Of a DNA stretch of 64,000 bases, positions 28,673-49,074 are shown piece after piece. Source of the stretch: Nannochloropsis oceanica (lineage: Eukaryota > Sar > Eustigmatophyceae > Eustigmatales > Monodopsidaceae); NCBI GenBank assembly GCA_004519485.1, contig CP038130.1, forward strand, positions 1,054,001-1,118,000, written 5' to 3'. The position numbers and the translations under genes were made by a program. A model generated the notes under the pieces. The model worked only from the letters and a program-made list of their open reading frames with translations. It made no database searches and had not been told where the DNA came from. Position 1 is the stretch's first letter, and the number at the start of each line of letters is the position of its first letter.

Positions 28673-31156
28673 ATGGCGTCCAAAACATCGCCGTCCAAAC
28701 TTCCATCTTTTGCCCATCCACGCTACACCCTCGTGGACAATGACAGAATAGTGCGCCGCACACAGAAGGGCGACGGACCTTCTTCATCCTCCACCTCTAT
28801 CTGTGTCGATGACGACTACCAGAGCGTGATTGAGTCGCTGTCTATGTACATCAAAGAGTACTTGCAGGCACGTTTCGACCTCGTCCAGCACTGGATCCCT
28901 GCCGGCGAGGAGGACACGCCGGCTAAGTGCGACGTTTTACTCTCTCGCGATTGGGAAATAGCGCCAAAGCTTCTAGTCATTCTGCAGAACCATGTGGGCT
29001 CGCAGTTGGGCATGTGGAGTCGGTCGACCTGCGTGACCAAGGGCCTGCGGGCCGGGTCCATGCTTTCCTTCCTAGAACAGGCGCATGAAAGCGGTTATGC
29101 CGTCATAGTCTGCAATCCTAACCTCAATTCAGTGGTAGTAGACGGACAGAAGCTGGCAGTGCCTGCCTCAGCATTTCCCGAGGAGCATGCTCTGTATGTG
29201 TACGAGACATTCGTTGCCAATTCTCAGGCGCAGAATGTGTTTTTGTTTGGGTACGGCAATGGAGCCATGCTCTGCAAGGAGATGCTGCAACGGCAGCTCG
29301 TCCGCTGCCAGCAGCAGACAGACGAGATCAATCGCATCGCAGCAATCGCAATAGTGGAAGCGAGTAGGGTGGTGGAAGACGATGATTCGGCGGATGTCAA
29401 GGCGTTTTTAGGGGCCTACACAGTGGATTGGGAGGCTTCCCTTCGGTTTCCACTGGGGCACGCCATCCCCACGGCCCGCGCACAAATGGGCATAGCGCAG
29501 GTTTTATCGGTGGGTACCGTGACAGAGGAAGACGAGAGCGACATGGCGCCAAGCACGGCCTGGACTGTGGTAGCGGCCAGCGACTCGGTTTTTCGTTTCT
29601 TTGACTTTTGCATCCAGGACTCCTTGCAGCACCCTCTTCCTGCCACTGTACCTTCCATTCCATCCTCCCCCTCCACCCCCAAGGCCTCTTCAAGAGATAA
29701 CATAATGATGACCCTCTCCTTTAGCAGCAGCAACGGCCAAACCCCGTGCGCTCCCAATCGACCGGGCTTGTCGTCCTTGCTTCGAAACGGCTACAGCATG
29801 AACTGTAGCAACACCCGCATAGGAGGTAGCAGTCCCAGTGCCTCTGACCCCGTCAGAAATTGTGGTTATCTCTTTTCAGTGGTAGAAGCCTCACGATGTG
29901 GCGTGCCTGCTCCTCCGTTTCCTAAAAGCCAGCTGTTGCCAGTCTGCACGTCAGGTCAACAGGACAGCAGCAGCAGCAGCAGCAGCAGCAGCGGTGGCTT
30001 CCTTCGGAGACTAGGGCGGGTATTTGCAAACGGATTGAGTTTGAGTCCATCGTCGCACAGGGAATGTCCTGCTTCACCGGCGGGGAGTGAGGATTTGGGC
30101 CGCGCTTTTAGCTCAGATAGAGGGAGCTGTCGAAGCTTGGCTTTGACTGAACGCCTGGACATTTCTGACTTTGATTTATTGAAGGTTGTGGGAAAGGGTG
30201 CCTTTGGGAAGGTAATGCTAGTGAAGAAAAAGAAAAGGACGGGGCATGGCGCGGGGAAAGTGTATGCGATGAAGGTATTGAACAAGGACTCGGTGGTCAA
30301 GAAAGGGCAGATTGAACACACCATGTCCGAGCGTGCTATTCTCTGCCAGATCCGGAACCCTTTCATAGTTCGTTTGCGCTTCGCGTTCCAGAATGAGACG
30401 AGTTTGTATTTGGTAACAGATTACTATACAGGTGGTTCCCTCTTTTACCATTTGAGAAAAAATAGATCTTTCCCTGAGTCCCGAGCGAAGTTCTACGCGG
30501 CAGAGTTGCTGTTGGCTTTGGAACATCTGCACGAACAATTTATCATCTATAGGGATTTGAAATTGGAAAATATCTTGATGGACTCTGAGGGGCACATTGC
30601 TTTGACTGACTTTGGGCTGTCGAAGCAGAATGTACGGACGAAATCGTGTGCGACAACCTTTTGTGGGACTGCCGAGTACCTCGCACCGGAGCTGCTGCAG
30701 GGGAAGGCCTACGGGGCACCGGTGGATTGGTGGAGTTTTGGAATTCTCCTGTATGAGATGATGGATGGCCGGACGCCTTTTTATAACAAGAATCGGAAGT
30801 ACATGTATCATTGTATAGTTCATGTCCGACCAACGTTTCCGCTGCATTTTTCCAAGGCAGCGCAGGCACTGATGAATCGCTTGTTGGAGCCTGACCCTGC
30901 TCGGCGACCCGCTGCGGCTGAGATCAAGGCGCATACTTTCTTTGCAGACTTGGATTTTAATAAGCTATACTGTAAGAAGCTCGCCCCGCCGTTCAACCCG
31001 CGGGTCAAGAACGAGATGGACATAAAGTTCGTGCCGAGCAACTACCACAAGCTCCCTCCCAAGGAGTCGGTGGCCGAGCCTACAGGGGCTGGGGCCTGTG
31101 CAGCAGCGGAATTCAAGGCCTTCACATACCATGGGGACTGCAGCCTTTTGGGTTGA
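28673..31156 (+). CDS. ARB2 domain - AGC protein kinase fusion
   Basis: Single exon, 827 aa. Residues about 40-325 resemble the ARB2 domain (FAM172/Hda1-C type alpha/beta-hydrolase-like): KLLVILQNHVGSQLGMWSRS, AHESGYAVIVCNPNLNSVVVDG, EEHALYVYETFV, then VFLFGYGNGAMLCKEML at the nucleophile-elbow position, GYGNG. A Ser/Pro-rich linker follows. Residues about 500-757 are a complete Ser/Thr kinase: GKGAFGKV, AMKVL (Lys), YRDLKLEN, TDFG, and FCGTAEYLAPE with the activation-loop Thr region. The AGC C-tail is present, with FNPRVK and the hydrophobic motif FKAFTY close to the C-terminus, so PDK1- and TORC2-type control is plausible. The kinase half is certain. The ARB2 assignment rests on motif order. 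Confidence 0.88.
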   Translation: MASKTSPSKLPSFAHPRYTLVDNDRIVRRTQKGDGPSSSSTSICVDDDYQSVIESLSMYIKEYLQARFDLVQHWIPAGEEDTPAKCDVLLSRDWEIAPKLLVILQNHVGSQLGMWSRSTCVTKGLRAGSMLSFLEQAHESGYAVIVCNPNLNSVVVDGQKLAVPASAFPEEHALYVYETFVANSQAQNVFLFGYGNGAMLCKEMLQRQLVRCQQQTDEINRIAAIAIVEASRVVEDDDSADVKAFLGAYTVDWEASLRFPLGHAIPTARAQMGIAQVLSVGTVTEEDESDMAPSTAWTVVAASDSVFRFFDFCIQDSLQHPLPATVPSIPSSPSTPKASSRDNIMMTLSFSSSNGQTPCAPNRPGLSSLLRNGYSMNCSNTRIGGSSPSASDPVRNCGYLFSVVEASRCGVPAPPFPKSQLLPVCTSGQQDSSSSSSSSSGGFLRRLGRVFANGLSLSPSSHRECPASPAGSEDLGRAFSSDRGSCRSLALTERLDISDFDLLKVVGKGAFGKVMLVKKKKRTGHGAGKVYAMKVLNKDSVVKKGQIEHTMSERAILCQIRNPFIVRLRFAFQNETSLYLVTDYYTGGSLFYHLRKNRSFPESRAKFYAAELLLALEHLHEQFIIYRDLKLENILMDSEGHIALTDFGLSKQNVRTKSCATTFCGTAEYLAPELLQGKAYGAPVDWWSFGILLYEMMDGRTPFYNKNRKYMYHCIVHVRPTFPLHFSKAAQALMNRLLEPDPARRPAAAEIKAHTFFADLDFNKLYCKKLAPPFNPRVKNEMDIKFVPSNYHKLPPKESVAEPTGAGACAAAEFKAFTYHGDCSLLG

Positions 31157-31714
31157 GGTTGAGTCATTGTAAATAGTGTTTGCATATTTCGGAGTCTAGG
31201 TGTATGATGCATGTTTTGTGTGTCTTGTTTGTATTTTGCATGGTATTTGGTATAGGGGCTAGGACGAAGAAAAAATGACCTTCCAGATAGTATAAGGTAG
31301 AGGAGCAAATAACGTGTATGACGTGTATTGCTTTGTGTAATTAGCGTCTTCGAAAATAAGAATACTGGTGGGCGTGCACAGGTGGGAGGTTTGAGACAAT
31401 TATGGGCCTGCTTCACCCATAGGACACTCCTCGTCTCCCGCCCAAACCTACCAAATCAAATCTCAGGGGACTTTCGTCACGAAAGTGTGGTCGGACCGGG
31501 TAACCACGTGATCAAGACACTACTAAGTGCCGACATGACGATGAGTTATATTGCGATTATATGTAAAATTGATCACCTACACTCTGTCCAATCTATGTTC
31601 GTAATGGGCCACCATCATTTCATCATACTTATTACCCTGCTAATCTTATGCATCCAAGCGAAAACGCCAAACAGAAACCAACATACAGGGACAGGCACCG
31701 AGTTCCACTCTGCA
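31157..31714. other. Intergenic / probable 5' leader of the channel gene
   Basis: The channel frame is open from about 31328, with an earlier in-frame ATG at 31535 that would add a hydrophobic segment (HHHFIILITLLILCIQA). This part is AT-richer than neighbouring coding DNA, so I treat it as leader, but an N-terminal extension cannot be excluded. Confidence 0.45.
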
Positions 31715-34700
31715 ATGCGGCCGGCCCACGGACCAGGGTACCCGCAGCCGCCCTTGCGCGGAGCCTCCTCACTGCACACCATGACAACAGCAGCACCAGC
31801 ACCCCCGGGCTTGGGGGGAGACAGCGAGGCGGAAGATTATATCTCATCGCTGCCCGTCTCGAGCGACGAGCACAGCGACACGTCTCACAGCGATAGGAGT
31901 AACGGAAGCGCATCCGTGCCAGGTGCGGCTCTTGGGCGGCCGTGGTCGTTGCCGTACGTTGATGGGCGTGTTGCTGCTCGCCGCCGCGTAATGCCACCCT
32001 CGCCTCCGCCCCGCGTCGTTGTACACCAACCTTTCAGTCAGCCCTTCCCGCCCGAGGAGTCTTCCGATGTCTGGAACATCCGTCCTCGGGCTGGGAGTGG
32101 ACGGACATCCTTGGGTCGGCGGCGTCGGTATGACTCGTATGTGAGCATGTTAAACTTGGATGAATTGCGGGAGCTGGATGATGAGTTGTTGCGTCGAGCG
32201 ATCGGGGGGGACGAGATGTATATCGAGGAAGAGGAAGAGAGAGAGGGAAGGAGAGGCAATGATGTCGAAGTGGAGGAAGACAGTGTGATGACCTCCCCCG
32301 GGCGGCAACACCGACGAAGGGGGCAAGAAGAGGAGGACGCGAGAGGCCGACCAAGCAGCAAGCGTGGCGTGAGCACCGGGTCGAGCAGGCGGCAAGAACA
32401 GCCGTGTGATGAAAGTGAGCCCAGAGAGCAGCAGCGACAGCAACAGCAGCAGCGTCTCCAACATCACGACCATTCTCATCGTGGACGGCAGGAGGATGAA
32501 GCGGAAGACCGACGGGAGGAAGTCCTAAATCCCGGGGAGCTCCAGCGCGTTCAGCAACAACAGCAACAGCTACAACAGCAATATCAACAGCAAAGTAGAA
32601 ATCCCCATCGTCTCAGCGTCATCCAGCAGCAGCAATGCTCTCCCCTGCGCACCCACCGGGAGAGCATCAGCCGCGGCGCCCCTCCTCCCAACCCCATTTT
32701 TCACGACCCCAAAATGGGCCCTCTGTCGGTCCCGGCCTCCGCGCCAAGCGACAGCGAGGACAGCAGCGGGCAAGGGCCACCACTCAGACTACCCTCGCGT
32801 TACTCGGCCCGTCGTGGGCTGGAAGGGGGGATTCCTCAATTGCCTTGTGTCCGAGATAGCAACAGCAGCAGCAGCAAGTTTCGTCGGCAGTCCCACCGGT
32901 CGGAGCCGCACGATGAAGGGGGAGGGGACGTGGATGAGGATCAGTGTATAAGAAGTAGCAGTCGTCGAAATAGTCTCTGGAGTTTTGGCAGTGTGTGGTT
33001 GCATGGAAACGGAGGCGGAGGAGGAGGCGGCGGAGGAGGAGGAAGAAGAGGAGGAGGGATGGGAGAGGGAGTGAATGGTGAGGAGAGCGTGCCCCCCACG
33101 TTCAACAGCAGCAGTGGCCCCGGGAAGCGTACCCTCTTATACTGGTTGGATCAACGATTGCCTCGCATGTCGGATGAGGAAAGAATCGCCCGTGCGTCTC
33201 TCTATGTGAGTGATGCTATCGACACGCGGCCGGTGCGGATGCGGGGTGGGGGAAAGGGTAATCTCTTTGCTTACCGCCTCCTAAAGCGCAGGGGCTGGCT
33301 ATGGATGATGCAAGCCCTAGCCATCTTTCATCTCCTGCTCGCTCTCTGGGAGCCTCCGCGAGCCTTGCCAGACTCTGCAGAATATCATGATTCCATCTCC
33401 CGGCATGTTCTGACCGGTGCTGCTTCTACTGCACAACACCTCTTGGGACTGGAGCTGTTTCTCGTGCTCCTCTTCATGCTGGACATTTTCCTGGAGGTGT
33501 ACGCCTTGGGTTTCAATGCTTTTTTTGGTACCAACGCCCCGCCTCGTGTCTTGGAGAACAAGGGGAGGGGCAATGCCGTGCAAGCCAAGCTTTGGGGCCA
33601 AGCACGCCTCATCCTCGTCATCGTCTTCTTCGCTGACATATGCGCCGCCTTAGACAAGCCCAACGATAGCCCCCGTTTCTCCCGCCCTTTGCGTCCACTT
33701 TATTTTATTTGCCTATCCGAGACCCTGAAGCGATGGAGCATCCTTCTCGTCCGGCTCCTGGGCCAGCTCCGTGACGTCGCCCTCGGCACCGGCATCTTCC
33801 TAGGTCTTTTCTCCCTTCTCGGGCTTATCCTCTTCTCCGAAACCGAGTATTACTCTTCCTCCATCCCCTATCTGAACTTCAACAATTTCCTCAACTCCTT
33901 TCTGGCTCTCTACGTCCTCACGACCACCCAAAATTTCGGCGCTCTCCTCAATCCTGCCTATTCAGCCAACCCTCAAGGTTCCTCTCCTCTCTACTTCTTC
34001 TTCTTTATGGCCTTCGTATTGATCGTCGTCCTCTTCCTCGCGCACTTGGCCCTCCCACGTGTCTTCTGGGTGTACCAAAAATTCCAACGCCAACAAGCAT
34101 ACGATAGCCGGCTGCTGGAGCGTTTGGCCCTGGTGATGACTTTCCGTTGCCTCGATCCCGATAAGCGTGGTTGGGTTGACTTAAGCTCTTTCCGATCAAT
34201 GCTGCGATACGCCCGCCCCGACTTTTTTGACCTCCACACAGGGTACGAGAAAGACTCGTATTGCGGGGCCACTGAGCACATGTTCGGCGAGCTAGCCCAC
34301 ACACACCCGGGCCGTGTCTATCCCCACGAGTTCCTCTCTGTATGCGAGGTGATCCTAACGGATTATTATCCATGTCTCCCACCTTTGGATCAGCCGGGCA
34401 TGGCGGCTTCTGAGTGGCACCAGCGGGAACGAGCACGGTTCCGCGCTATTCTCAGTTCACGATGGGCGGAAGTAGGGTCAATGACCTTGTTATTGCTGAC
34501 TTGTTTTTTCCTCACCTTTTACGGAAGCCCCGCTGTCAGCAAGACGTCACTCCGAGGGTTCTCCCACTCAGTCGTCGTCTTCTTCGCCGTCGAAATGGCT
34601 TTGAGGCTCTGGGCATTCGGTCCCAAGCTCTTCCTCTCCTCCCCTTCCAATGTCGTGGATCTTCTCATCATCAGCGCCTCCTTCATCTCCCTCCTAGTCT

Positions 34701-35548
34701 ACGCCTTCGCCCCTCCACACTCCCCCCTTCACGAGTCCGAGCAAATGGCCAACCTCTGCCTCCTCTTCCTCACTCTTCGAGTCGTTCGACTCTTTCCCAA
34801 ATGTGCGATCTTCAGAAAATTTTCCAGCGCCTTCCGAGTCCTGCCCTTCTTCCTCTCCTCCTTTTTTCTCTGTGTTCTCATCTCCTATTCTTGGGCTGTG
34901 TTCGGTATGGCCCTTTTCGCGCGCTACGGAGAGCAGATCCAAGCCACCACAGCTACCACACATCAAGATCTAGCTGGATGGGCGTCCATCGATAATTTCA
35001 ACTCCTTTTGGAGTGCATCTGTGACACTGTTTCAAGTAGCGACGACGTATGATTGGTATAGAATCATGTATTTGTGGATGGATTTAGCTGAGTCTCCTTG
35101 GGTGTCGATGTACTTTTTGGCCTTTCACTTGGTGGCCAATGTCGTAGTTTATCAGCTGACGGCTGCTCTATTCATCGACGCCTTTTTGTCGTTTTCGGAT
35201 AAGCGGTGGGTAGAGCAGGAGGATGGGGAGGGATGGGATAGAGGTAGAAGGACCTCCGGGAGGGGAGTGGGTTTGGAAGGGTTGGACGAGGAAGACGTGG
35301 ATGAGAGCGAGGATGGCAAGGATAGGGTGGCACAGACGAGGTGTAATGCTGATGCGAGTATAATACAACGCTGGAGCCAAAAGTCGGGAACGGCGTCCTC
35401 TGTTGCATCAAAATCAGGGCTTGCCGGCACCAATTCTTCGTCCACCCCGAGCGACGACCTGGAGAATCAGCCACACCGCCGCAGTGAGGGTGGTGGGATG
35501 GAAAGCGGGGGAAGACGGTCTCCGTCCTATCAAGCCTCCGTGATTTAA
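31715..35548 (+). CDS. Two-pore-domain voltage-gated cation channel (TPC-like)
   Basis: Single exon, about 1277 aa from the ATG at 31715 (MRPAHGPGYPQPP). The first 500 residues are low-complexity: Gln, Ser, acidic and a poly-Gly run. Two six-TM repeats follow. Repeat I runs from about residue 525 (WLWMMQALAIFHLLLALWE, LELFLVLLFMLDIFLEV) to a pore FLNSFLALYVLTTTQNFG and S6 FFFFMAFVLIVVLFLAHL. The linker has an EF-hand-like loop (LDPDKRGWVDLSSF), as in plant TPC1. Repeat II has an S4 with spaced Arg/Lys (TLRVVRLFPKCAIFRKF) and a pore TLFQVATTYDWY ending in S6. TPCs conduct Ca2+/Na+ across endolysosomal or vacuolar membranes. The filters differ from the usual TxNN/xxNW sequences. The start codon is uncertain. 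Confidence 0.85.
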   Translation: MRPAHGPGYPQPPLRGASSLHTMTTAAPAPPGLGGDSEAEDYISSLPVSSDEHSDTSHSDRSNGSASVPGAALGRPWSLPYVDGRVAARRRVMPPSPPPRVVVHQPFSQPFPPEESSDVWNIRPRAGSGRTSLGRRRRYDSYVSMLNLDELRELDDELLRRAIGGDEMYIEEEEEREGRRGNDVEVEEDSVMTSPGRQHRRRGQEEEDARGRPSSKRGVSTGSSRRQEQPCDESEPREQQRQQQQQRLQHHDHSHRGRQEDEAEDRREEVLNPGELQRVQQQQQQLQQQYQQQSRNPHRLSVIQQQQCSPLRTHRESISRGAPPPNPIFHDPKMGPLSVPASAPSDSEDSSGQGPPLRLPSRYSARRGLEGGIPQLPCVRDSNSSSSKFRRQSHRSEPHDEGGGDVDEDQCIRSSSRRNSLWSFGSVWLHGNGGGGGGGGGGGRRGGGMGEGVNGEESVPPTFNSSSGPGKRTLLYWLDQRLPRMSDEERIARASLYVSDAIDTRPVRMRGGGKGNLFAYRLLKRRGWLWMMQALAIFHLLLALWEPPRALPDSAEYHDSISRHVLTGAASTAQHLLGLELFLVLLFMLDIFLEVYALGFNAFFGTNAPPRVLENKGRGNAVQAKLWGQARLILVIVFFADICAALDKPNDSPRFSRPLRPLYFICLSETLKRWSILLVRLLGQLRDVALGTGIFLGLFSLLGLILFSETEYYSSSIPYLNFNNFLNSFLALYVLTTTQNFGALLNPAYSANPQGSSPLYFFFFMAFVLIVVLFLAHLALPRVFWVYQKFQRQQAYDSRLLERLALVMTFRCLDPDKRGWVDLSSFRSMLRYARPDFFDLHTGYEKDSYCGATEHMFGELAHTHPGRVYPHEFLSVCEVILTDYYPCLPPLDQPGMAASEWHQRERARFRAILSSRWAEVGSMTLLLLTCFFLTFYGSPAVSKTSLRGFSHSVVVFFAVEMALRLWAFGPKLFLSSPSNVVDLLIISASFISLLVYAFAPPHSPLHESEQMANLCLLFLTLRVVRLFPKCAIFRKFSSAFRVLPFFLSSFFLCVLISYSWAVFGMALFARYGEQIQATTATTHQDLAGWASIDNFNSFWSASVTLFQVATTYDWYRIMYLWMDLAESPWVSMYFLAFHLVANVVVYQLTAALFIDAFLSFSDKRWVEQEDGEGWDRGRRTSGRGVGLEGLDEEDVDESEDGKDRVAQTRCNADASIIQRWSQKSGTASSVASKSGLAGTNSSSTPSDDLENQPHRRSEGGGMESGGRRSPSYQASVI

Positions 35549-35704: not shown

Positions 35705-35773
35705 GAGATAATTTTATTGCGTTATTATTTATTATATTTATTATTAATTATATTAATAATTAATTATTATCTC
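35705..35773. repeat. AT-rich 69-bp island with 8-bp terminal inverted repeat
   Basis: Bounded by GAGATAAT (35705-35712) and ATTATCTC (35766-35773). The interior is almost entirely A/T and imperfectly self-complementary, in strong contrast to the GC-rich surroundings. It may form the element end or an insertion target. Confidence 0.85.
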
Positions 35774-35917
35774 TTGAATGAATAGTTCTTTTGAGTTCCT
35801 ACATCTCTCTAGAACTATCGCATGCAACCTGACGTCTTCGAGGACTTGCATACGAGGGGGAGCCTTCCAACAAGAAAGTGTTGTCATCCCTTATTTCCTT
35901 GTCCGAGTTTTTCTAGC

Positions 35918-35949
35918 GACTTTGACAGGTTTTTTGACCTGGCAAAGTC
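35918..35949. repeat. Stem-loop after Fanzor stop codon
   Basis: Arms GACTTTG-A-CAGG (35918-35929) and CCTG-G-CAAAGTC (35938-35949) pair over 11 of 12 positions with an 8-nt loop. A second perfect hairpin GGCCC/GGGCC (35957-35971) is 7 bp away. Confidence 0.9.
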
Positions 35950-36017
35950 CCCGGACGGCCCACACAGGGCCAGGAGGAGAAGGGGGAGGAGCATAAAAGA
36001 GGAGGTCAGCGGGAAGG

Positions 36018-37370
36018 CTACACATAGAGTGTCCGCATGTCCTGCCGCGGTTGACCAAACCGAAGATCATGGGGACGAGCTTCCCCACGGACCATTCTCC
36101 TGTACACCCGTAGGATATTACGTGCCCCATTGCCGTCCCGGGACACGAACTGTTCACAGGTGTTACACCAATACAGTCCTCGGATGGCCCGCCCATGACC
36201 TCCTCCTCTGCCTGGTCCTCGTCCTCCTCCGCCTTCTCCGCCTCCTCCGCCTCCTCCGCCTCCTCCGCCTCCTCCCCCTCCTCCTTCTCCTCCTCCTCCT
36301 CCTTCCCCTCCTCCTCCTCCTCCACCTCCTTCTCCACCACCTCCTCCTTCTCCTCCTTCTCCTTCTGTCCTTCTCGCAATAGGGTTCAGGCGCTGCCCAC
36401 AATCGAGGTGAACCTTTGTCGTCAGGTGCTCGGGTACATACACTGTTCTGTAGTACCTTTCGCACACCCGGAGCACCCTCTTCACCGGAACGCTCACCTC
36501 TCCCTTGCCTGTGTGCGGGAAAATCCCCGCCCCATACGCGATAATGGGCTTCGCCTGCCCTGGCCCCGTCAAGCCCGCAAAAAAAACATCCAAGACCTTC
36601 TGCTTCCCCGCATACACCGCCATATGCGCACGCGCCCGTTTCTTTTCACACCTGGCATCCCACAATCGGTGGTAATGCCGTACGATCAGCTCCCTGTAAG
36701 CGCTACGCAAGTCGGGACAGCAGGACTTCATCGTGGTCCTCGAAAAGGCGGCATTGATGTCACCGAGTGCGTCCTCCCAAGAGTTAAACTTTCTCTTGCA
36801 CTCGTTGATCCGCCCCTTTTCGTAGTACGCACGACACGTCAAGGTCTTGATCTTGCCCGTCTGCGAGTCCAACGCCGTGACCAGGTTGACGCGACCGGGA
36901 TCGATCGCGACAATGCGTCGCTCTCTGACTGGCTGCAGGTTTTCTTGTCCCTGCTGACGTTCCAGCATCTCCTTCTCCTCGTCCTCCTTTTCCACTCTGA
37001 CCCTCTCCGCTTTCTCCCTCTTCAGTCTCTCCTTCGCCACGTGAAAGAAGACCGACACCGAGACACCATCCGTGGAAACCCGATTATGAAACACCCGCTG
37101 GTTTCGTAGGTTCCCCACCTGAAAAGTCTCGTCCCACATCTCCTTCACCGAAACCGCATCCTGGCAAAACTTTAAAGAATGAATAGGAAAATTACATCTC
37201 TTCTGGCTTGCTTTGGGTACTTTGTGGGCTTCAGTACGCTTTTGTGGAACGCATGCTATGACTTTAAACCAATCAAATTTACGTGCGTGCGACGGGTGCA
37301 CTATTTCATAATATGGCAGCATTGACACCACGTGACTCGGTTGTGTTCGAAGGCGATCGCTTTCGCCCAA
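36018..37370 (-). CDS. Fanzor: eukaryotic TnpB-like putative RNA-guided endonuclease
   Basis: Single ORF, 450 aa. The N-terminal half includes the family block MWDETFQVGNLRNQRVFHNR followed by STDGVSVSVFF. RuvC-I is RIVAIDPGRVNLVTAL (Asp about 157). At the RuvC-II place, PIIAYGAGIF lacks the usual Glu; a Glu appears instead in VPEHLTTKVHLDCG (about 314), the rearranged position reported for Fanzors. RuvC-III is SRDGNGARNIL (Asp about 412). The zinc ribbon is HLDC...WCNTC, one ligand being His rather than Cys. Between its two halves sits a 50-60-residue Gly/Glu run encoded by (CCT)n-like DNA. A nuclease cutting DNA under guide-RNA direction is predicted. All three acidic residues are present and there are no internal stops, so it looks intact. 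The N-terminus is short for the family, so an upstream exon is possible. Confidence 0.85.
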   Translation of the reverse strand: MGESDRLRTQPSHVVSMLPYYEIVHPSHARKFDWFKVIACVPQKRTEAHKVPKASQKRCNFPIHSLKFCQDAVSVKEMWDETFQVGNLRNQRVFHNRVSTDGVSVSVFFHVAKERLKREKAERVRVEKEDEEKEMLERQQGQENLQPVRERRIVAIDPGRVNLVTALDSQTGKIKTLTCRAYYEKGRINECKRKFNSWEDALGDINAAFSRTTMKSCCPDLRSAYRELIVRHYHRLWDARCEKKRARAHMAVYAGKQKVLDVFFAGLTGPGQAKPIIAYGAGIFPHTGKGEVSVPVKRVLRVCERYYRTVYVPEHLTTKVHLDCGQRLNPIARRTEGEGGEGGGGGEGGGGGGGGEGGGGGEGGGGGGGGGGGGGGGGEGGGGRGPGRGGGHGRAIRGLYWCNTCEQFVSRDGNGARNILRVYRRMVRGEARPHDLRFGQPRQDMRTLYV

Positions 37371-37438
37371 AGAAAGAAACGGCTTTCTTCAAGTCGCTTC
37401 ATTGAGATCCCCAACACGACATCAGGAATCTGCCTAGG

Positions 37439-37482
37439 GTCAATAATTCAACCTAATGTTTTGATTAGGTTGAATTATTGAC
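37439..37482. repeat. Perfect 19-bp inverted repeat (hairpin, 6-nt loop)
   Basis: Left arm GTCAATAATTCAACCTAAT (37439-37457), loop GTTTTG, right arm its exact reverse complement (37464-37482). A GGGTCAA string occurs at both outer edges (37437 and 37484). It lies 69 bp upstream of the Fanzor ATG and 128 bp upstream of the divergent glycosyltransferase ATG. Confidence 0.97.
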
Positions 37483-37610
37483 GGGTCAAAATTTCTTGTA
37501 CCATTTATCCGCACAGAGCCTTTCTTTTGTGCTTAACTTATGCCTGCTCTCAAGTCGATCCACCCACGTACCCCCCTTCACCAGAGACTGAGAGAGCGTC
37601 AGGAGGAAAT

Positions 37611-46652: not shown

Positions 46653-49074
46653 ATGGCGGTGAGCAGCGATGATGAGGAGAGCGATTACACCGACAGCTCT
46701 AGCGAGGACGACGGCGCAGTCCCTCCCCCAATACCACACCGATCACACCATCCAGGCAGAGCGGGTGGATTTCAACAAACCATGGTGATTGATTCGGACG
46801 ATGCAGGAGTAGGAGAGGGGGAAGGCGAAGAGGAGGAGGAGGAGGACGAGGAAGAAGAGGAAGAAGAGGAACGGGAAGAAGGGGGGGGAGGGGGGGAGGT
46901 GGACGATCAACGGATACGCCTGACGCGGCAATTGGGCAAACTCTTGCAGAAATTTATTGAGAGTGGGTCGCACGTCATGTTCTCCGTCCAATTGGAGGAA
47001 GCGTTCTCGCTGCACGTCGAGCGGGAGGTAGCAGCAGCAGCGACAGCAGCTGCAGCACAGACGAAGATGGGAAAGAAAGCAGCAGCAACAGCTAAGAGTT
47101 TCGTGGCCCTATATCGAGAAAAGGCCGCCGTATTAGTGTCACGCTTGAGGTTTAGCAGGAAGAAAAAGCTGGCGAAGCTGGTGAGGGGGAAGGAATGGGG
47201 GAAGATTGCAAGTAAGTACTCCAAGGTGGGGGGGAAGGAGGGAGGGAAGGAGGGAGGGAAGGAGGATGGTGCTGCTGAGGATGTAAAGAAAAAGACGAAA
47301 AAGGGGAATGCAGCAGTAGCAGGTGGAGGAGGAAGAGATACACCGTTGAAAAGAGGGAGGGGAAGGCCAAAGAGTGCCCCAGCAGGTGTAGCAGCAGCAG
47401 CAGAAGGAGGATCGTCATCAGCAGCAGCAGCAGCAGCAGCAGCAGGAGCAGGAGGAGAGGGGGGACGAGGAAGACGAGGTGGAAAGATGGAGCCGGGGAA
47501 AGGTGGAAAGACAAAGGTGGCTCATGGGGGGGAGGGGAAGAAGAGGAGGAAGGCTGGTAATGGCGTGGAAGGTAACAGCGAGGACGAGGAGCACAGGGAA
47601 GCGGGGGAGGGGGCAGTCGGACCACGGGCGAAGAAGACAAAGTGGGGTGCTGGCAGTGGAGGCAGAAAGGGTGCCAAGGCAGGAGCAGGAGCAGGAATAG
47701 TCGTCAGGCCTGAGAGCAGCAGCTCTACCGGAGGAGGAGGAGCGGGGGAAGGAGGAGGGGTGAAGGAGCCGCTCATTCCTTTAGCTCGTTCTGCCAAAAT
47801 GCTCCCACTTCCCACTAAGCCGGCCGCTCCTGCTGCTGCTCCTGCTACTGCTACTGCCGCTATTGGAGCGGTGGATAGGAAGGGGATGGGCAGCAGGGGA
47901 GGCGGCAACAGCAGCACCAGTTTGTCGTCCATGGCAGGAGAAGGAGGAGGAGGAGGAGGAGGAGGAGGAGGAGGAGGAGGAGGAGGAGGAGGAGGAGGAG
48001 GAGGAGGAGGAGGAGGAGGAGGAGGAGGAGGAGGAGGAGGAGGAGGAGGAGGAGGAGGAGGAGGAGGAGGAGGAGGAGGAGGAGGAGGAGGAGGAGGAGG
48101 AGGAGGAGGAGGAGGAGGAGGAGGAGGAGGAGGAGGAGGAGGAGGAGGAGGAGGAGGAGGAGGAGGAGGAGGAGGAGGAGGAGGAGGAGGAGGAGGAGGA
48201 GGAGGAGGAGGAGGAGGAGGAGGAGGAGGAGGAGGAGGAGGAGGAGGCCGGAGGAGGAGGAGGAGGAGGAGGAGGAGGAGGAGGAGGAGGAGCTCACAGT
48301 AACGGTGGCGCCGGTGGTACTCCCCGCCACCCTCCGTTCTACTCCTCCACCTCCACCACCACCACACATCACCTTAAGAGTAGCACGTCTTCCTCCTCCC
48401 CTATTCCTCCCCCTCCTCGGCGTCAACACGAAACGGCTCGCGAACGCCAAGACAGGCACAAGGCTCGTCTAGCGGCCAAGGAGGAGGAGAGGAGAAAACA
48501 ACTCCAGATTAGACGAGAGGCAGAACGGCGAATGCATTCAAATTTAAAACCCACGGTTATTTTTGACGGTACTTTGGAAGCGTTGCTCAGGCTGAGGGAT
48601 GGGGAGGGAGGGGTTGGCGGGCTGAAAGGGTTGGACGAGTGGGGGACCTTTAGGATAATGAGCCAAGAGGAGAGGAGAGGCGAGGGAAAGAGGAGAGATG
48701 GAAGGAGGACGGAAGCGAGGAGGGAGGCAGCGGGGCGGCTGAGTGGTGGAGGGGGTATTACTCCAGCTAGAAGAGGTCGAGAACGAGGAGCTACCAGCGA
48801 TGGGAGTAACACGACGCATTGTGCAGCGACTCCGCCTGTTTCTCGTGCTGCAGCAGTGGCACCACCACCTTCTCGCCCTCCTCCTCCTCCTTCTCCTCCG
48901 CCTCCTCCTCCTCCTCCTCCTCCTCCTCCTCCTCCTCCTCCTCCTCCTTCTTCTTCTTCTTCTTCTTCTCCTCCTCCTCCTCCTCCTCCTCCTGCCCCTT
49001 TTGTTTCTTCATATTTTTCTTCTACTTCGCGGCCATCCTCGTCTTTGCCTTCATATTCGGGGGCTCGCCATTGA
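46653..49074 (+). CDS. Acidic, AT-hook low-complexity nuclear protein of unknown function
   Basis: Starts MAVSSDDEESDYTDSSSEDDG, then a long Glu run. An ordered basic segment follows (about residues 85-190, RQLGKLLQKFIESGSHVMF, LEEAFSLHVE, LVSRLRFSRKKKLAKLVRGKEWGKI), then an AT-hook KRGRGRPKS. A poly-Gly tract is encoded by about 115 GGA units. The frame before the tract reads Gly and continues to an early stop at 48302, whereas the frame encoding GAHSNGGAGG, a coiled Lys/Arg/Glu helix (ARERQDRHKARLAAKEEERRKQ) and VIFDGTLEALLRLRDG is offset by one base. Deleting one C of the CC at 48248-48249 would join them exactly, giving about 806 aa. I therefore read this as one gene with a repeat-associated sequence error. 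It is probably a chromatin protein; no family recognised. The C-terminus is Pro/Ser-rich. Confidence 0.6.
47944..48292 (+). repeat. (GGA)n microsatellite, about 115 units
   Basis: Nearly perfect over some 349 bp, with one interruption GGCCGG at 48246-48251. Purine-only on the + strand; length may be misassembled. Confidence 0.95.
48877..48993 (+). repeat. (CCT)n/(CTT)n microsatellite, opposite strand sense
   Basis: Pyrimidine-only trinucleotide tract encoding Pro and Ser, about 585 bp after the GGA tract and complementary to it, so the two form an inverted pair. Confidence 0.9.

Follow-up and report, generated by a model that had tools for sequence, protein, structure and literature searches.

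A probable young 5′-truncated Fanzor-type insertion between two host genes of Nannochloropsis oceanica

Results

The open reading frame and its sequence blocks

The window, i.e. the whole 64,000-nucleotide stretch of a Nannochloropsis oceanica contig analysed here, has a G+C content of about 54%. The feature under study sits between two host genes and had been described in a first-pass annotation as an apparently intact Fanzor nuclease encoded by a 450-aa ORF. The open frame stands, with the provisos that its 450 codons include the stop and that it runs on the minus strand; the corresponding frame of the plus strand at 36018-37370 contains several stops. The two neighbouring ORFs and the coding segments are:

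31328-35548, plus strand: neighbouring ORF, ion channel
36018-37370, minus strand: ORF of 450 codons (stop included), codons 1-65 being flank and codons from about 66 to 450 element
36018-36197, minus strand: second zinc-ribbon half (Cys402, Cys405), Asp412 in RDGNGARN (36135-36137) and C-terminus
36198-37173, minus strand: end of the WED domain (TDG) and RuvC part, holding Asp157, Glu314, His321/Cys324 and the Gly-rich tract
36198-36362, minus strand: Gly-rich tract
36429-36431, minus strand: Glu314 codon
36900-36902, minus strand: Asp157 codon
37527-39308, plus strand: neighbouring ORF, Mannosyl_trans3 protein

All of the Fanzor blocks listed in the annotation are present and in the order given there. 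TDG (residues 100-102), the RuvC-I Asp in D157-P158-G159, Glu314 within PEHLTTK and, after the ribbon, the RuvC-III Asp of R411-D412 in RDGNGARN are invariant in a 16-sequence alignment, as are H321, C324, C402 and C405; the YGAGIF block occupies residues 279-284. Thus all three acidic residues (D157, E314 and D412) are kept, and six residues separate the relocated Glu (Ealt), E314, from the first zinc ligand, H321. As relatives match with E-values down to 1.9e-71, the blocks do not reflect chance. TDG in WED and the other Fanzor1 hallmarks applied here follow Yoon and colleagues (PMC10711439, available portion).

Relationship to Fanzors

A protein search with residues 14-335 retrieved 16 relatives (E from 1.9e-71), twelve of 630-767 aa and four of 347-421 aa, and a profile search returned 46 relatives at E ≤ 0.001 with the best 8000 candidates scored. 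Compared with the PDB, the profile had the mimivirus Fanzor2 L79 (9b0l) as its sole match (E 4.4e-5); L79 and the window ORF have in common an EYLTTK stretch with the shifted Glu. Fanzors also head the fold matches of the window ORF. SpuFz1, the Fanzor1 of Spizellomyces punctatus (PDB 8gkh, 9ceu-9cez), is the top fold match both of the window ORF, with which it shares the order D, shifted E, D at about 15-17% identity, and of the full-length metagenomic relative P0003 (658 aa), which matches the Fanzor1 fold from end to end. Pfam on the window ORF alone gave a ribbon model at E 0.12, below the cut-off; a PDB phmmer search with the raw ORF retrieved mainly Gly-rich stretches, with no Fanzor or TnpB among its 31 rows; and none of the 39 pattern-matching stretches from a scan of viral contigs was confirmed. 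Sequence relatives, the L79 match and the Fanzor-headed fold matches bear out the proposed Fanzor relationship and its shifted Glu, and the window feature is a real Fanzor-type sequence.

The zinc ribbon that had been claimed is present in both halves but is not of the C4 type: it reads H321-x2-C324 ... C402-x2-C405, with a Gly-rich tract (about residues 337-391) between the halves. The E-LTTK motif occurs in 30 of 48 proteins examined, and in 28 of these 30 the ribbon starts with HxxC; of the remaining two, one carries CxxC and the other, P0010, lacks both. The window family therefore lacks the C4 zinc finger of Fanzor1 as defined by the motif in the available portion of Bao and Jurka 2013 (PMC3627910). 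The regular expression given there for relocated-Glu proteins, its garbled spacing taken as 120-160, matches none of the 48 proteins, partly through spacing; P0024, though CxxC, also falls outside it, and the Gly tract of the window is longer than the allowed gap. Owing to the HxxC...CxxC ribbon and the missing C4 match we use the name Fanzor1-like. Pattern searches based on CxxC would miss such families. Other long copies in the same genome have a still longer low-complexity insert within the ribbon. In L009, L010, L011 and L012 a long low-complexity insert with a common segment (RTRAAEAAAA... to LSLPGE) lies between the ribbon halves, and this insert is absent from the window copy and from P0003.

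Extent of the element and loss of the N-terminal half

Comparison with other copies of the genome delimits the element and its flanks as follows:

35776-35782, minus strand: right copy of the 7-bp target duplication TTCATTC, directly after ...GAACTA
35783-37173, minus strand: 5′-truncated Fanzor-type copy, homologous part with fixed right end at 35783 (blastn against loci of the same genome)
35783-36017, minus strand: conserved 3′ region of 235 nt after the stop, candidate guide-RNA scaffold (30-copy alignment and consensus fold)
35783-35817, minus strand: terminal TAGTTCT...AGAACTA stem in the predicted fold of the last 110 nt of the window copy
35818-35855, minus strand: 10-bp hairpin TCGTATGCAA/TTGCATGCGA near the right end (consensus pairs 204-241)
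37174-37370, minus strand: single-copy flank, ORF codons 1-65
37174-37176, minus strand: TTT filler adjoining the element
37177-37183, minus strand: left copy of the target duplication TTCATTC, preceded by CCTA (37184-37187)

At the DNA level, homology to other copies opens in the middle of the gene, at 37173, and runs to 35783, which is 235 nt beyond the stop codon. When 37100-37540 served as query, matches to other copies were confined to the element side, up to 37173/37174, and the flank had none, so the first 65 codons are flanking sequence open by chance. Within the element, Met occurs for the first time at residue 78. In the alignment the window ORF from residue 76 corresponds to P0003 from residue 355, and the ORF lacks about 340 residues that the long relatives have at their N-terminus. 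This N-terminal half is absent relative to P0003 and P0004 as well as to residues 1-370 of SpuFz1, and two Fanzor1 features, the REC domain with its kinked helix pair and the full WED, are not in the window copy. In SpuFz1 the WED and REC side contacts the TAM and the guide RNA (PMC10432273, available portion); this side is mostly missing from the window protein. Intactness, the headline of the annotation, is thus not supported, in view of homology that begins only at 37173, the lost N-terminal residues and a target duplication flanking the insertion.

A missing N-terminal exon further upstream in the window was also considered and rejected: P0003 has nearby matches in its search against the genome only at C4:1090015-1091148 (P0003 residues ≥ 354), and its only other C4 match, an N-terminal one, lies about 190 kb away at C4:1281777, in a search that small or diverged exons could escape.

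Target duplication after CTA

At the window the order is CCTA-TTCATTC-TTT-element-GAACTA-TTCATTC. Seven matching letters upstream are not rare for a single locus, as 10 of 30 mispaired flanks reach at least 7; what gives the window duplication its weight is not repeat length but the preceding CTA and the position right at the junction. For the family, 42 right-end matches (excised loci and window) were considered, of which 11 without the required terminal motif (including L022 and L050, despite near-standard ends) and one with too little upstream sequence were dropped, leaving 30. The prefix of the right flank recurs upstream after CTA over at least 5, 6, 7 and 8 nt in 10, 8, 6 and 5 of these 30 copies, compared to means of 0.52, 0.31, 0.17 and 0 with mispaired flanks, and CTA is the best of the 64 trinucleotides at every prefix length. 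The base before CTA is C in seven of the ten copies with a repeat. The duplication adjoins the start of homology in the window, in L010 (C8, repeat GGGATCGAAG) and in L054, where it directly precedes the Gly tract; in the other seven of the ten, some 115-785 nt separate it from the point downstream where homology to other copies is first detected, so that the left ends there are tentative. No CTA-preceded repeat of at least 5 nt was found in 20 of the 30 copies. Longer repeats without CTA in L037 and L025 are taken as chance, and few duplications came to light when left boundaries were assumed in advance.

An AT-rich tandem tract (35722-35769) follows immediately on the element's right flank. 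On the other side, a perfect palindrome with 19-bp arms and a 6-nt loop (37439-37482) is located just upstream of the Mannosyl_trans3 ORF; it was rejected as an element end, since it occurs once in the genome and lies outside the duplication.

Copies of the family in the genome

In the genome (29.26 Mb, 32 contigs) we found at least 94 matches at the protein level (best 94 of 191 candidates scored), 72 of which reach the C-terminus as judged by reading, and 40 places were excised for comparison. Of the 42 right-end matches, 31 finish with the standard end ...AAAAGAACTA or differ from it by one base, and the flank beyond is unrelated. Left ends are not the same from copy to copy, and internal deletions occur in some copies. 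A cut-and-paste element with terminal inverted repeats was discarded, as the compared copies have a common right end and no single left end; L038 and L046 stop at the same left point, possibly a true 5′ end.

No uninterrupted full-length copy was found among the long copies examined, in an intron-free reading whose counts are lower bounds. The C9 copy has a frame change near the counterpart of P0003 residue 130, the C8 and C27 copies start in mid-gene, the C15 copy has an internal stop, the C11 copy has five stops and the C19 copy is split into two frames that overlap, of which the second contains a stop. At L037:758-1459 two element right ends stand tail to tail in opposite orientation, 12 bp apart, and in the right ends of L045, L023 and L047 the last 12 bases are immediately preceded by short insertions that vary (GCAAC-like units).

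The conserved 3′ region

For the 235-nt 3′ region 41 matches are listed, and the consensus fold of 30 copies has an energy of -51.95 kcal/mol; with a both-sided change in 1 of 59 pairs, covariation says little. When up to 3 mismatches are allowed, the hairpin motif occurs 164 times in the genome, 78 times on one strand and 86 on the other, and not at all in the control. Hairpins and coding sequence were compared through the 91 exact motifs among 100 listed hairpin rows and the 72 C-terminal rows: 40 of the 91 have a same-strand C-terminal coding row within 1 kb and 51 have none, the latter being an upper estimate given that the coding search comprises the best 94 of 191 scored. Nearly full-length 3′ regions also occur away from the coding lists, e.g. 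at C3:1066804 and C14:106657.

Neither L013 and L018 nor the 30-copy consensus is predicted to form the terminal TAG...CTA stem of the window copy. Minimum-energy folding of the older copies L016, L017 and L019 does not yield the 10-bp hairpin; inspected by eye, this hairpin has a single A-U pair turned into G-C in L016 and L019, and two disrupted pairs in L017. An Rfam search gave no match at the gathering score. At L019:4588-4725 the repeat GCGGATAG stands on either side of an older right end, about 46 nt long, which may be an extremely short insertion.

Sequence changes in the window copy

The window copy is 98.3-98.8% identical to the C9, C8 and C27 copies over 271 codons, and this youth accounts for its open frame. 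Pairwise dN/dS against the three is 0.39-0.69 on 10-14 changes, which reflects the history of the family and not selection on the window copy. Without the junction codon 66, its private changes amount to three (two nonsynonymous, one synonymous), too few to show selection on the ORF. A nearly invariant Arg is changed to Cys at position 179. The suggestion that the protein is active or domesticated finds no support, with the TAM and guide side mostly missing, a large dispersed family and the Arg to Cys change; the window copy is most likely without nuclease function.

Discussion

The feature is in our judgement a young 5′-truncated insertion of a Fanzor-type (Fanzor1-like) element with the RuvC and zinc-ribbon half and a complete right end, a reading that we hold with good though not full confidence. 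What was claimed as an intact eukaryotic RNA-guided nuclease becomes a readable copying event; the ORF is most likely a remnant left by an element of a known kind and not an intact nuclease gene.

We infer one-ended movement from the right end, where element end and target both have CTA. The making of a new copy would begin there: the structured ...GAACTA terminus would be joined to a target directly behind a CTA, in most cases a CCTA, and copying would often stop short of the 5′ end, giving truncated copies and duplications of about 5-10 bp. One enzyme cutting after the same short word in element end and target would explain the common CTA. The full-length members may be RNA-guided nucleases, with the 3′ region as putative guide-RNA scaffold, the flank after CTA as candidate guide and the CCTA of the empty site as presumptive TAM. 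In the search for a transposase or for an autonomous RepHel element with shared ends, the Helitron_like_N profile had no match in the genome, as was the case for the control genomes.

Fixed 3′ ends, variable 5′ ends, short duplications and filler are the classic signs of target-primed reverse transcription. With fixed 3′ and variable 5′ ends, duplications of 7-10 bp, TTT filler and a structured 3′ region, the family could also have spread through a transcript that ends at the right end and serves as template for reverse transcription from a nick behind CTA, which would produce truncation, short duplications and filler. We consider this unlikely, as RVT_1 matches in the genome are limited to two partial ones below the cut-off (the model matched 3 of 14 control genomes) and no constant A-tail follows the right end.

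Truncation might even be productive. The at least 164 right ends, many without detected coding sequence, could each be a guide-RNA gene that takes its guide from the site of its insertion, with CCTA as TAM, maintained by selection as stand-alone genes and serving a few full-length proteins in trans. The excess of 164 hairpins over 72 C-terminal coding rows and the conserved, foldable 235-nt region would fit this, as would Fanzor1 guide RNAs that are reported to include the transposon end and the duplication (PMC10711439, available portion). Recent copying explains the conservation, both-sided change is confined to a single one of the 59 pairs and no intact full-length protein gene is present among the copies examined, so that we regard the idea as improbable. 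If true, the structured RNA/DNA end may also direct insertion after CTA, tying the formation of guide RNAs to the spread of the element. That the window ORF is a working or domesticated nuclease is very improbable: the 450 codons without a stop and the three acidic residues with both ribbon halves in one frame are outweighed by the missing ~340 N-terminal residues, a start codon region encoded by flank, the duplication on both sides, the altered Arg179 and private changes too few for selection.

One-ended, truncating insertion brings the window family close to the Fanzor1 elements CRe-1, 2 and 3 of Chlamydomonas reinhardtii, for which the available portion of Bao and Jurka 2013 (PMC3627910) describes 3′ overabundance, 5′ truncation, internal deletions and duplications of about 7-19 bp after TTTT with extra 5′ bases. 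Both are multicopy elements with a Fanzor gene, and they share 5′ truncation with intact 3′ ends, internal deletions, and short duplications that start after a fixed short word with extra bases at the 5′ junction. They differ in the target word, TTTT in CRe-1, 2 and 3 versus CTA/CCTA here, and in the HxxC...CxxC ribbon with its Gly tract, which as far as that text goes is particular to the window family. SpuFz1 recognizes CATA as TAM (PMC10432273, available portion), compared to the presumed CCTA of the window family. The same 2013 paper names one Fanzor1, 'NOc', for Nannochloropsis oceanica, which may be the same family as the window copy.

A title- and abstract-level literature search combining Fanzor with Nannochloropsis, algae, truncation, and one-ended or non-LTR movement returned no work that treats the window family, and the one-ended 5′-truncating pattern described in 2013 has no follow-up in the literature searched. 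N. oceanica is a second algal-type genome in which such Fanzor insertion can be studied, helped by copies that can be counted and by a clear target word (CTA). It is the family that has value, as its target word is clean, its insertions are young and its 3′ ends are many; the flanks predict a TAM and guides that are directly testable.

Two further observations concern the rest of the window. The ORF at 28673-31156 joins an Arb2 domain to a protein kinase domain, a pairing that is to our knowledge unusual. At 47936-48292 about 119 copies of AGG (98% match) overlap long ORFs on both strands.
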